From contig NZ_CAAGSW010000002.1 of the NCBI RefSeq assembly GCF_900774055.1, positions 310,001 through 374,000 on the forward strand: a stretch of 64,000 nt of DNA. Reading direction: 5' to 3'. Origin of the DNA: Methanococcoides sp. AM1. GTDB taxonomy: Archaea; Halobacteriota; Methanosarcinia; Methanosarcinales; Methanosarcinaceae. Each line of letters begins with the position of its first letter. The stretch's first letter is position 1. The translations under genes were made by a program, and so were the position numbers. The notes beneath the pieces were generated by a model. The model was not told the origin of the DNA, made no database searches, and worked only from the letters and a program-made list of their open reading frames with translations. Positions 39,105 through 55,676 of this stretch are shown in pieces.

Positions 39105-39274
39105 GCTTACTCATCTTGATTTTCAAAAGACTGGCCTATAGTTCGCCATCCTTATATATTGCTTGTTTATATAATATGAATTGAATGATTGTGGGGACAA
39201 TTGTTCATATTGGGTGAACGGGAGGGATTGTTATCATTGCAAATGGTGAATCCGAGGTAGATGATGAGCTTAGC

Positions 39275-40426
39275 GTGGATTCGTTGATTTCATCTTTTAA
39301 AGATAGGTGCAACGAAGAAATATCCGAACATCATATAGCGGAGAATCTGTCAAATAATAATTATTTCCTTCTAAGGAACGTTCTGGAATCTACGGATGAT
39401 GGAATTTCTTTTTTTGATAACAACGGGACTATCCGGCTGGTGAACAATAAGTTCAGGGAGATCTGGAATATTCCTGATGATGCCGACACTGAGAAGAACT
39501 ACATTGATGCATTTGTCAAATATGGTTTAGCTCAACTGAAAAATCCGGATCACATCCTTTCAAAGATCAGGAGATTTCCACGATCAGCTGAAAATAGTTC
39601 CGATGTCCTTTATTTCAAGGACGGTCGAATATTTGAGTACCATCTTTTCCCTGTTGTTACGGAGGGGGTCATCAAGGGGCATGTTTGTAGTTATCGTGAT
39701 ATCACCAGGAGGAAAAAGGCAGAGTCCGATTTTCAGGAATACGCCCGGGAACTGGAACGATCAAATGAGATCAAAGACCTGTTCACTGATATTATACGGC
39801 ATGATCTGCTTAATCCTGCAGGCCTTGTAAAGGGGTTTGTGGAAATATTGCTTAAGAGGGAGTTCGATCCGGACACTACTGAAAAGCTCTGTGCTATTAA
39901 AAGAAGTAACCGAAAGCTTATTGAAATGATCGAATCAGCTTCTAAGCTTTCAAGGCTGGAATCCATTAGTGAACTGGAATTCAGGGAGTTTGATGTTGGT
40001 GGATTTATGAGGATGGCAGTAGAGGCTCTCCATGGTCAGTTCGAAAGTAAACATATAGTTCTTGAAAACAATATAACTGGTGCACATAAAGCAAAAATAA
40101 GTCCGATTATAGAAGAGGTCTTTGTGAATTTGCTTTCAAATGCAGTAAAATATAGTCCTGAGAACAGCAAGGTGATCGTTGGTATTCTTGACAACGGTGA
40201 TAGGTGGAAGGTAACAGTAACCGATTTCGGTGAAGGGGTTGCTGATGAGGACAAACCATACGTTTTCGAAAGATTCAAGCGTGTTAACAAGGTTGCAGTG
40301 AAAGGAACAGGTTTGGGTCTTGCTATTGTCAAAAGGATAATTGACCTGCATGGTGGCGAAGTGGGTGTGGAGGACAATTCTGAAGGAAAAGGAAGTGTTT
40401 TCTGGGTAACAGTGAAGAAGGCCTGA
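39275..40426 (+). CDS. Soluble PAS-domain sensor histidine kinase
   Basis: A 383-residue histidine kinase with no membrane segment, so it senses an internal signal. PAS domain about residues 30-150, phospho-acceptor His176 in IIRHDLLNPAG, and an ATPase domain about 270-383 with N-box NLLSNAVKYS, G1 DFGEGVAD and G2 KGTGLGLAIVKR. The start is unsure: GTG at 39275 has no close ribosome site, while the frame is open upstream past GGAGGG at 39221-39226 without an ATG/GTG/TTG in frame. TATA-like boxes at about 39152 and 39166 are upstream. No response regulator gene is adjacent. Confidence 0.85.
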   Translation: MDSLISSFKDRCNEEISEHHIAENLSNNNYFLLRNVLESTDDGISFFDNNGTIRLVNNKFREIWNIPDDADTEKNYIDAFVKYGLAQLKNPDHILSKIRRFPRSAENSSDVLYFKDGRIFEYHLFPVVTEGVIKGHVCSYRDITRRKKAESDFQEYARELERSNEIKDLFTDIIRHDLLNPAGLVKGFVEILLKREFDPDTTEKLCAIKRSNRKLIEMIESASKLSRLESISELEFREFDVGGFMRMAVEALHGQFESKHIVLENNITGAHKAKISPIIEEVFVNLLSNAVKYSPENSKVIVGILDNGDRWKVTVTDFGEGVADEDKPYVFERFKRVNKVAVKGTGLGLAIVKRIIDLHGGEVGVEDNSEGKGSVFWVTVKKA

Positions 40427-43192: not shown

Positions 43193-44089
43193 TCAAATAT
43201 CGAGTGTCATCAGTTCTTTTTCGTTGAGGACATCCTCTTCTTCACGCTCGAAGACTATCCCGCCTGATGCTCTCATGACACCGTCCACACGTGCGCTTTC
43301 ATGTATCCTTATGGAACTGGCATTTATCTCTCCAAGAACGTGTGTACCTTTATGGATATGTACATTTCCACGTGAAACTATGTTTCCGTGTATGGTATTG
43401 TTCTCACCAAGGTTCACGGCGTCCATGGTACGTATGCTTCCGTAGAGCGTAGTGCCATTTGCCAGATCAAGCGACGTAGCGCGTATGTTCCCCACAAGGC
43501 GGCAATCACTTCCGATAACAGCATTTGAAGGGACCCTTATTGAATCGATGGATATCTTGGAGCCGTTTGGTATGATCATGGCAGCAGTGCCGATGGTCTC
43601 AACTTCTTCATCAAACATCTCGCTTAATGCCTTTTCGACCTCTTCGTCCTTGCCCATGCGCAAAAGTTCGGTCAGGTACAGGAATAGATATGCGATTACA
43701 GGAACCGGATTCCTTACAACGATCCATCCCTTTGCCTCGAATCCGTCACTGATCTTTACATTGTTGCCGATATCAAGGTCACCTTTGACCACAAGCTTCC
43801 CGTCAATGGAGACGAACTCTCCGATGTAGGCGTTCTCTTTTGTCTTGACAGTTCCGCCAATGTGGGACCAGATATCGATCCTGATATCAGATCTGGCATT
43901 GATATCGCCGGAAACCTCAACCCTTTCTCCGAGGATCGCAGAATCAGCTATCAGGCCATATCGTACATCTGAATGGTTACCTACTATGATGTCTCCATCC
44001 AGCACAATATTGTGCTCTTCCATTTTTGTATTGTCCGGAATGACAAACGTTTTAAAGAGTTCCTCTTCTGCGATGATTTCACCCTCCAA
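43193..44089 (-). CDS. Bactofilin-like polymer-forming beta-helix protein
   Basis: A 298-residue protein with two right/left-handed beta-helix-like repeat regions (about residues 20-125 and 170-285) of the V-x-G-D/N-I pattern typical of bactofilins and hexapeptide proteins, separated by a hydrophobic helix (PVIAYLFLYLTELL) and a charged helix. The first ATG is at residue 23, yet conserved-looking sequence begins earlier, so TTG at 44089 is used; GGAGGGTGAA immediately after it looks like a ribosome site for a rarer start. A TATA box at 44108-44115 fits a leaderless TTG start. Probably a surface or cytoskeletal scaffold; function inferred only. Confidence 0.75.
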   Translation of the reverse strand: MEGEIIAEEELFKTFVIPDNTKMEEHNIVLDGDIIVGNHSDVRYGLIADSAILGERVEVSGDINARSDIRIDIWSHIGGTVKTKENAYIGEFVSIDGKLVVKGDLDIGNNVKISDGFEAKGWIVVRNPVPVIAYLFLYLTELLRMGKDEEVEKALSEMFDEEVETIGTAAMIIPNGSKISIDSIRVPSNAVIGSDCRLVGNIRATSLDLANGTTLYGSIRTMDAVNLGENNTIHGNIVSRGNVHIHKGTHVLGEINASSIRIHESARVDGVMRASGGIVFEREEEDVLNEKELMTLDI

Positions 44090-44107
44090 CGAGATGAATT
44101 TGAGGCG

Positions 44108-44115
44108 ATATATAA
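44108..44115 (-). promoter_or_regulatory. Putative TATA box of the bactofilin-like gene
   Basis: On the minus strand TTATATAT lies about 23 bases before TTG at 44089. Initiation would fall close to that codon. Confidence 0.4.
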
Positions 44116-44197
44116 GTTCACAGCTTATTTAACCTGTTGCTATATGTATATTTTGACGTTAGCCCCATCTGACGGGACCTTCCGGATGCCTGCAGGG

Positions 44198-53230: not shown

Positions 53231-54055
53231 ATGGATGTTGTTCGGAAAAGGGCTCTTTCAAACACTGCAAAAGTGGCTATTGGTGTTCGTGATCCAACTC
53301 CTAAGATGCTATCCAGTATAGAGAATGCACACAATGAGGGATATGCACATGTTATCCTTGTAGGGGATAAGCAGGAGATCGATGCTATTGGCACTTCTCT
53401 TGAGATCATTAACACCCATGAGCCGGAGTACGTTCTGGGCGACCTGTTGGCATCGGGTTCAGTTGATGCAGCTGTCAGGGGAACTGCAAAAGCATCAGGT
53501 GCGCTGTCCCATCTAAAGCAGGTCCTGAAAATAGAGCGGCTTCATCGTATGGCTTTTCTCCTTACCTCTGAAGGTGTTCCATTCTTCCTTGCACCTGTGG
53601 GCATCGATGAGGGCAATGACCTCTCGGACAAGATCACACTTGTTAAGCTTGGTGTGGAACACATGCGCAGGTTCGGAGTTGAACCGGTGGTAGGAGTGCT
53701 TTCGGGTGGCAGGATGGACGATCTTGGAAGGCATGAGACGATCGATCGCACACTTGCAGACGCTGACTTCCTCGCAAGCCGGCTTCGGGAAAATGGTATA
53801 TGTGCAAAGCATTATACAATACTCATTGAGGACGCCATAAAGGAAGCGAACTTCATCTTTGCTCCTGACGGGATAACTGGTAACCTGATATTCAGGACAC
53901 TTGTGTTCCTTGGAGGAGGGGACGGTATCGGTGCGCCTGTATTAATGGATGACCATGTCTTCGTGGACACATCACGCGTGGGTGGTCACTACACAAAAGC
54001 TATTATGCTTGCAAGTGCCCTTGTGGATATGAAAAACGAGAGAAACAGATCTTGA
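53231..54055 (+). CDS. mtxX: Methanogen MtxX (phosphotransacetylase-like) protein
   Basis: A 274-residue protein of the MtxX family, with the fold of phosphate acetyl/butyryl transferases; TPKMLSSIENAHNEGYAHVILVGD and LGGGDGIGAPVLMDDHVFVDTS are its typical stretches. It is methanogen-specific and was named for its position beside mtrA- and mtrH-like genes in Methanosarcina. Catalysis is not established. No strong ribosome site precedes the ATG. Followed by mtxA and mtxH. Confidence 0.88.
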   Translation: MDVVRKRALSNTAKVAIGVRDPTPKMLSSIENAHNEGYAHVILVGDKQEIDAIGTSLEIINTHEPEYVLGDLLASGSVDAAVRGTAKASGALSHLKQVLKIERLHRMAFLLTSEGVPFFLAPVGIDEGNDLSDKITLVKLGVEHMRRFGVEPVVGVLSGGRMDDLGRHETIDRTLADADFLASRLRENGICAKHYTILIEDAIKEANFIFAPDGITGNLIFRTLVFLGGGDGIGAPVLMDDHVFVDTSRVGGHYTKAIMLASALVDMKNERNRS

Positions 54056-54081
54056 TTATATGTGATTTATGAGGTGTTGAC

Positions 54082-54675
54082 ATAGAAACTGTTGCATGTG
54101 GCTGGCCTGTTGTGAAAGGAGATTGCATTGCCGGAATGAATGATTCCTGTATTGCAGTTATAACTCTTGCAAGCTCACTTGAACCTTATGATGAAGCTGC
54201 CATGTGGGGTAGCTGCAAGACCGAGAACCTTGGTGCAGAGAAGATCATTATAAACACGGTTTCAAATTCGAATATCAGGTATCTCCTGATATGCGGTAAT
54301 GAATCCAGGGGTCATCTTGCAGGAAAGACACTTATTGCACTTCACAAGAACGGCATCGATGAGGATGGTCGGATCATTGGTTCGGATGGAGCGATACCCT
54401 TTATCGAGAACGTCGGAAGGGATGTAATTGAACGTTTCCAGAAGCAGGTAAGTCTCATCGAACGCATCGGCCTGATCGACATTGATGAGATCCGCCGGAT
54501 CGTTGATGAGTATAAAGAAAAAGAAGGTCCGTACTGTGAAGCAGCTTTCGTTGTAGAGAGCGCAAAAAAGAAAAGCAGGCCGGTTATGGATGTCACTTCC
54601 GGGGATATCATGGTATCAGGCAATGTAATGCTTGATTCGGCTTCCGGAATTGTTTGTGAAGTAGAGTCCGATTAA
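54082..54675 (+). CDS. mtxA: MtrA-like corrinoid protein (non-canonical start)
   Basis: A soluble homologue of MtrA, the cobamide-carrying subunit of methyl-H4MPT:coenzyme M methyltransferase. The motif GWPVVKGDCIAGMNDSC (from about residue 7) is the MtrA N-terminus, and ICGNESRGHLAG holds the histidine equivalent to the cobalt-ligand His. PFIENVGRDVIERFQKQV is also typical. The C-terminal membrane anchor of MtrA is absent. The conserved part begins upstream of the first canonical start (GTG, 54112): the frame runs back to a stop at 54070-54072 with only ATA at 54082 after GAGGTG. I report the ATA start (197 residues); the GTG version would lose the GWPVV motif. Confidence 0.8.
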   Translation: METVACGWPVVKGDCIAGMNDSCIAVITLASSLEPYDEAAMWGSCKTENLGAEKIIINTVSNSNIRYLLICGNESRGHLAGKTLIALHKNGIDEDGRIIGSDGAIPFIENVGRDVIERFQKQVSLIERIGLIDIDEIRRIVDEYKEKEGPYCEAAFVVESAKKKSRPVMDVTSGDIMVSGNVMLDSASGIVCEVESD

Positions 54676-54743
54676 GTAGGATCTAATTAAGTATCGATTT
54701 AGTATTATCTTTATCATTGTTATATTTCGTAGAGGTTATGTTC

Positions 54744-55676
54744 ATGTTCAGGTTCCAGAAAGAGCAGGAGATCGTCAATATCGCAGGTGTGAAGATCGGA
54801 GGTCAGCCGGGTGAGCTGCCAACAGTACTTGCAGGTACCATATTCTATGAAGGTCACAGCATCGTGGAAGATGCGGATGCTGGCATATTCGACAGGGCAG
54901 AGGCAGAAGTCCTTGTGAACCTGCAGGATTCCATGTCCGATGAGACCGGGAATCCCGCGATCGTCCATATCTTCGCCAACACCTTTGAGAGTATGCAGAA
55001 GTACATCGATTTTGTAACATCAGTAAGCGATTCTCCTTTTATCATCGATTCCCCGCAGCCTGCTGTGAGGATGGCTTCTGCAGAATACGTGACCGACATA
55101 GGACTTGCCGATAAGACGATCTACAATTCCATTAACATGAGCATAAGTGACGATGAATGTGCTTCTCTTGCAAATTCTGACATCGATAGTTCTATAATTC
55201 TCGGTTTCAATGCAATGGACTCATCCCTTGATGGGAGGATGGCATTGCTGGAGAACGGGGGTAAATTGATGGACAGGGGGCTGCTGGAGGTTGCCGGAGA
55301 ATGTGGTATAAAGAACATCCTTATCGATCCAAGCATTACTCCCATGGGTGATGGTGCAGGTATTGCTCTTCGTATGACAATGACAGCAAAGGCGAAATGG
55401 GGATACCCTGTAGGGTCCGGTATCCACAATGCTCCTTCTTCCTGGAGCTGGCTTAAGGCTAAAAAGAAGGAAGATCCACTGGTCTATCAGATGTGCGATA
55501 TAGGTACGGTTTCCATGCAGCAGCTTGCAGGTGGCGATTTTGTTCTCTATGGTCCTATCGAGAATGCACGCTACACCTTCCCACTGGCCGCCATGGGTGA
55601 TATTATGGTCGCGGAGGCATCTTCCGATCTTGATATAGAACCATCATCCTCACACCCGCTTAACCTGCTGGTGTGA
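54744..55676 (+). CDS. mtxH: MtrH-like methyltransferase
   Basis: A 310-residue homologue of MtrH, the methyltransferase subunit that moves a methyl group between a tetrahydromethanopterin-type carrier and a corrinoid protein. FRFQKEQEIVNIAGVKIGGQPGE is the MtrH opening, and the TIM-barrel strands (FIIDSPQPAVRM, IILGFNAMDSS, NILIDPSITPMG) match a pterin-binding fold. ATG at 54744 is favoured over 54738: AGAGG at 54731-54735 is 8 bases away. With mtxA it probably forms a separate methyl-transfer module. Confidence 0.9.
   Translation: MFRFQKEQEIVNIAGVKIGGQPGELPTVLAGTIFYEGHSIVEDADAGIFDRAEAEVLVNLQDSMSDETGNPAIVHIFANTFESMQKYIDFVTSVSDSPFIIDSPQPAVRMASAEYVTDIGLADKTIYNSINMSISDDECASLANSDIDSSIILGFNAMDSSLDGRMALLENGGKLMDRGLLEVAGECGIKNILIDPSITPMGDGAGIALRMTMTAKAKWGYPVGSGIHNAPSSWSWLKAKKKEDPLVYQMCDIGTVSMQQLAGGDFVLYGPIENARYTFPLAAMGDIMVAEASSDLDIEPSSSHPLNLLV

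Follow-up and report, generated by a model that had tools for sequence, protein, structure and literature searches.

Where does translation of mtxA begin? The window analysed here, a stretch of 64,000 nucleotides from Methanococcoides sp. AM1, holds a gene for an MtrA-family corrinoid protein in which a conserved N-terminal motif is encoded ahead of the first canonical start codon. A sequence-only reading of this DNA had proposed that the protein is initiated at an ATA codon further upstream. We compared the locus with its counterparts in related genomes and looked for similar starts elsewhere in the window and its contig.

The mtxA reading frame

Read from the in-frame stop at 54070, the mtxA frame runs TGA GGT GTT GAC ATA GAA ACT GTT GCA TGT GGC TGG CCT GTT GTG and contains no ATG, GTG or TTG between that stop and the GTG at 54112 (Table 1). 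The motif GWPVVKGD is coded from the GGC at 54100, upstream of this GTG, and a Shine-Dalgarno (SD) sequence, GAGGTG, lies five bases ahead of the ATA at 54082; on both points the frame itself bears out the sequence-only reading. The same reading had warned that a standard gene caller would truncate the protein, and the ORF lister does begin mtxA at GTG 54112.

When started at the ATA, the predicted protein finds its best match in the MtxA-type model NF010654 with 295.5 bits (cut-off 279), its residues 2-196 aligning with positions 2-196 of 197, and the match to PF04208 scores 179.9 bits (cut-off 25). Homologues flank the gene on both sides, with mtxX (TIGR03270) upstream and mtxH (PF02007/TIGR01114) downstream. 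Judged by the full-length family match and these two neighbours, the product is MtxA; methyl transfer by a bound corrinoid is predicted from sequence alone. The gene order and the families agree with the mtxXAH operon of the Methanosarcinales (group II mtrA), as far as the accessible part of its description goes (PMC4632066). In this genome, the gene for canonical MtrA begins with ATG.

Table 1. Features of the window, with proposed start codons and the SD sequences that precede them
Feature	Position	Strand	Remarks
mtxX (Mmp4/MtxX, TIGR03270)	53231..54055	+	operon gene upstream of mtxA; its own stop, TGA, lies 26 nt before the ATA
TGA in the mtxA frame, upstream	54070..54072	+	bounds the search for a start
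SD GAGGTG of mtxA	54071..54076	+	5 nt (TTGAC) before the ATA
ATA, proposed mtxA start codon	54082..54084	+	in 10/10 genus genomes with the gene; outgroup TTG/ATG within two codons at 20/20 loci
mtxA, MtrA-family corrinoid protein	54082..54675	+	197 codons; PF04208; NF010654 above cut-off
GTG, first canonical codon of the mtxA frame	54112..54114	+	rejected as start: cuts into the conserved GWPVVKGD; GTA in four relatives
mtxH (MtrH family)	54744..55676	+	ATG 54744 kept in the relatives compared; further ATG at 54738
PAS/histidine-kinase gene, frame	39218-40423	+	first canonical codon a GTG 19 codons in
SD GGAGG of the histidine-kinase gene	39221..39225	+	before the ATC
ATC, probable histidine-kinase start	39233..39235	+	ATC/ATT in 6/6 close orthologues
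Bactofilin-like gene (PF04519)	43196-44128	-	putative AUC/AUU/AUA start conserved across Methanosarcinaceae
ATC, proposed bactofilin-like start	44072..44074	-	ATC/ATT/ATA at 21/21 Methanosarcinaceae loci
SD GGAGGGTGA of the bactofilin-like gene	44079..44087	-	upstream of the ATC

Conservation of the ATA codon in Methanococcoides

Eleven Methanococcoides genomes were searched, and ten of them hold mtxA; in the remaining one (G003, 97% complete) the search returned an MtrA match only. M. vulcani (L032), whose mtxA is identical to that of another locus, L007, was left out of the counts. All ten genomes have ATA at the aligned codon, which rules out a sequencing slip in one genome, the circumstance that the sequence-only reading had named as able to overturn its proposal. 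The SD sequence lies exactly 5 nt before the ATA throughout, as GAGGTG in four loci and GGGGTG in six. No canonical codon precedes the ATA in frame in eight of the ten; in L005 and L006 there is an in-frame TTG 8 codons upstream, right behind the mtxX stop and with no visible SD.

Alignment with other MtxA and MtrA N termini, which had been suggested as a check, points to the same codon. The first methionine of NF010654 falls on ATA 54082 in the profile alignment, and in the 20 outgroup loci read (L012-L031) the start codon is never more than two codons away: it stands exactly at the ATA codon as TTG in 10 and as ATG in 3, one codon downstream as TTG in 2 and two codons upstream as ATG in 5.

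The invariance of the triplet is by itself only modest evidence, because other isoleucine columns are codon-invariant too. In the alignment of the ten genes, 4 of 16 conserved isoleucine columns keep one codon, ATA at position 1 among them, and with 3 of the other 15 equally invariant we dropped this measure as a stand-alone proof for mtxA. The case is instead carried by the match to the relatives' start codon, the spacing of the SD sequence and the lack of an alternative start in most loci. On these grounds, the ATA initiation put forward by the sequence-only reading is supported, with methionine at the AUA remaining an inference.

In four Methanococcoides species (L008-L011) mtxA and mtxH are fused into one frame of 485 codons. 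The fused frame of L011, the sole one scanned for domains, contains both the MtrA and the MtrH domain. The frame is counted from the ATA, which in L010 and L011 is locus position 1501; L008 and L009 are on the minus strand. This fusion, like the ATA start found throughout the genus, sets the locus apart from the mtxXAH operon as presented in the available portion of PMC4632066.

Similar putative starts in other genes

From its sequence pattern, mtxA is one case of a wider one, as similar putative starts recur in other genes. A search of the window for frames with a late first canonical start gave two further candidates, a bactofilin-like gene and a histidine-kinase gene. In the bactofilin-like gene the codon aligned with the proposed start is ATC in 17, ATA in 2 and ATT in 2 of the 21 Methanosarcinaceae loci read, and all four loci of a sister family (L094-L097) have an ATG two codons downstream. 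Left out were G011, G018 and G019, for which there was no locus, and G024, which gave no match.

In the six close orthologues of the histidine-kinase gene, the codon found 6-7 nt after GGAGG is ATC in five and ATT in one. The predicted start at ATC 39233 is only probable, because in five of the six there is, in addition, a canonical codon that precedes it by 14-17 codons. Matches from clade B (L043-L047), which align only from residue 24-26, were excluded from this count.

Outside the window, one of three thermosome-related genes found in the same genome (C2:143861-145507, plus strand; locus L111:13861-15507, plus strand) has an ATC at its proposed start in all 11 Methanococcoides, with GGAGG 7 nt upstream. 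Its next canonical codon is at +35 or +37, and 10 of the 11 loci have none upstream. In other genera the gene has a different beginning.

The proposed start codon of radB

The radB gene of the same genome, which encodes a DNA-repair protein, lies on the minus strand at C2:283346-284014 (locus L118:13346-14014, minus strand). The protein scores above the cut-off of TIGR02237; NF006861 aligns from position 2 but stays below its own cut-off. Our survey of 25 Methanosarcinaceae genomes yielded 24 readable loci from 13 genera (G018, without a locus, was not counted), and the codon at the proposed start is ATA in 23 of the 24 and ATC in one (L185). An SD sequence of the form G[AG]GGTG (GAGGTG or GGGGTG) lies 5-7 nt upstream, as computed for 23 rows and seen by eye in L173. 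Canonical in-frame codons are absent upstream in 12 of the 24.

Elsewhere in the 24-row alignment, 12 other columns dominated by isoleucine mix ATA, ATC and ATT, ATA making up 120 of 276 isoleucine codons, and of the 77 degenerate columns that are fully conserved only 2 keep a single codon. At the pooled ATA share of 120/276, the binomial probability of ATA in at least 23 of 24 rows is 7e-8, shared ancestry being ignored. Among the genes considered here radB is the strongest case of a putative AUA start, its codon being constrained, to judge by these alignments, as a triplet and not as isoleucine.

Outside the family, radB has ATG in L187, L190 and L191. At the position concerned, L189 has ATA and L186 ATT behind GGAG-type sequences, and the ATG of L187 stands there as well. 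Since L186 and L189 belong to another family of the same order, similar radB starts may extend past the Methanosarcinaceae.

A wider scan of the contig

A 364-kb stretch that includes the window (C2:10001-374000) was scanned against syntenic stretches of G010, G001 and, in part, G005. The sample comprised 355 ORFs, 314 of them with orthologues in both G010 and G001. A scan for an SD sequence plus codon without a filter on canonical starts returned mostly noise, and a stricter filter was used instead. This gave six rows from five loci: mtxA, the bactofilin-like gene, radB, the thermosome gene and C2:70492-71994. As a control, every sense codon that follows an SD sequence was counted, and the comparison shows a modest enrichment of ATH (6/212, against 14/1805 for the others; Fisher p 0.014).

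Two loci remain undecided candidates. At C2:70492-71994 (plus strand) an ATA stands behind an SD sequence and a conserved TTG lies downstream. At C2:293550-294089 (minus strand) ATT or ATA stands behind an SD sequence; this locus appears only in the sense-codon control and has no NCBIfam match.

Alternative explanations

Translation of mtxA could begin at GTG 54112, the conserved codons upstream being an untranslated leader. This GTG is the first canonical start and is kept, at +10, in 6 of the 10 relatives, but the remaining four have GTA in its place and TTG at +32 as their next canonical codon, a start at which would remove the conserved N terminus. Even where it is present, the GTG would cost the protein WPVV, which belongs to the part of the family domain where the models and the solved MtrA chains begin to align; furthermore, codons 2-10 match outgroup proteins whose TTG or ATG start precedes those codons. 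A start at this site is refuted for those four relatives, and we consider it highly unlikely in general. A still fainter prospect is that ribosomes pass from mtxX into mtxA by frameshifting or readthrough, making a fused protein that needs no start codon. At the 10 loci measured, mtxX ends only 11-33 nt before the ATA, and in three loci no stop interrupts the mtxA frame over the 40 codons that precede it. However, an in-frame stop precedes the ATA by 4 codons in L001, L003, L004 and L007 and by 9-11 codons in L005, L006 and L010, so that frameshift entry is ruled out at seven of the ten loci. In addition, the thermosome gene and radB share the same type of start, and in radB a stop lies 2 codons ahead of the ATA in nine rows. 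For radB, the true start might be the GTG inside the SD sequence, the ATA then being an ordinary isoleucine codon. That GTG is in frame, three codons ahead of the ATA, in 10 of the 24 loci (L184 and L177 have further canonical codons upstream), but at the other loci it is out of frame or is then met by an in-frame stop (nine rows, and L173 by eye). The ATA also lacks the variation of other isoleucine codons in radB, and in mtxA the GTG of the SD sequence is never in frame, which leaves this explanation with very little to commend it.

The explanation that deserves more weight, though we think it unlikely, accepts initiation at AUA and holds it to be accidental: a start codon drifted by losing its G, and the loss was tolerated as the product is dispensable, AUA itself being unselected. 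In its favor, mtxA is missing from the 97% complete G003, and relatives use the weak TTG, so low expression may suffice. Against it, the mtxA ATA is retained in both Methanococcoides clades, which are ~72% identical in this gene, and radB has kept AUA in 23 of 24 genomes even though one A-to-G transition would give AUG. That AUA persists speaks for selection in favor of a weak start driven by the SD sequence, and, as far as comparison of genomes can tell, starts of this kind seem purposeful and not a product of chance. Taken together, mtxA of Methanococcoides very probably starts at the AUA at 54082 in an SD-driven manner, as one of a small set of AUA, AUC and AUU starts in the Methanosarcinaceae; that it starts with methionine is inferred, without protein or ribosome data. 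Our confidence, which is grounded in comparative sequence data, is high that the ATA is used and moderate that it is under selection, and it does not extend to the efficiency of initiation.

A putative mechanism and its relation to known systems

The proposed set has family-wide members, radB and the bactofilin-like gene, and genus-wide ones, mtxA and one thermosome gene; a histidine kinase probably belongs to it as well. Every proposed start in it is an AUN codon. In mtxA, the SD sequence GAGGUG, 5 nt away, would set the AUA into the ribosomal P site, where the normal initiator tRNA (anticodon CAU) would begin with methionine despite the mismatch at the third position. Both the positioning by the SD sequence and the tolerance of the mismatch by Met-tRNAi, whose use is itself inferred, are deduced from the sequence pattern and from general knowledge of initiation. 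That initiation is inefficient, and that selection favors a start which is weak or regulated, are likewise inferences.

In bacteria, infC and pcnB start at AUU, and the AUU of infC serves feedback by IF3. The starts proposed here resemble these in being near-cognate AUN codons with a mismatch at the third position that would be kept by selection. They differ in being archaeal, mostly AUA and spread over several unrelated genes, and the gene of the fidelity factor, aIF1, starts at ATG. An infC-like autoregulatory loop on aIF1 was not seen in the 12 loci read (24 were fetched), all of which have the ATG. The resemblance to archaeal GUG and UUG starts is that these are also SD-assisted and weak, and UUG is the start of most mtxA orthologues in other genera. 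Unlike those, however, AUA, AUC and AUU lie beyond the set that common gene callers accept, and we found no mention of them as archaeal starts in the literature, as far as its accessible portions allow.

The sources, each available in part, define the background. Archaeal starts are named as AUG, GUG and UUG (PMC7531240), and Ribo-seq of M. mazei gives ATG, GTG, TTG and CTG as starts of small ORFs (PMC11456600). AUU switches are described as rare in prokaryotes (PMC5622118), and aIF1 is reported to favor discrimination against non-canonical starts (PMC6237735). The sole archaeal AUA start that we found in these partial texts is a mutation of the nadA start codon from ATG to ATA in an engineered Halobacterium strain (PMC11834397). 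Within the accessible open-licence literature, there was no report of conserved AUA, AUC or AUU starts in the Methanosarcinaceae; protein databases, which possibly already place the RadB methionine at the ATA, were outside this search.

Implications

On balance we favor, without regarding it as settled, the reading that the Methanosarcinaceae hold AUA, AUC and AUU starts with SD sequences by selection, as a built-in control of expression. For radB and the bactofilin-like gene this would date from the ancestor of the family at least, and for mtxA and the thermosome gene from the ancestor of Methanococcoides. Five loci among the 314 orthologous ORFs scanned would imply tens of such genes per genome, all mis-started or lost by gene callers. 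Conserved starts of this kind would indicate a systematic error in the annotation of methanogen genes. They would also form a natural test set for the start fidelity set by aIF1, aIF2 and the SD sequence, in a family for which laboratory genetics exist (Methanosarcina). Non-canonical translation in Archaea has been demonstrated only for elongation and termination, according to the part of PMC8211752 that was available; conserved AUA, AUC and AUU starts would extend it to initiation.
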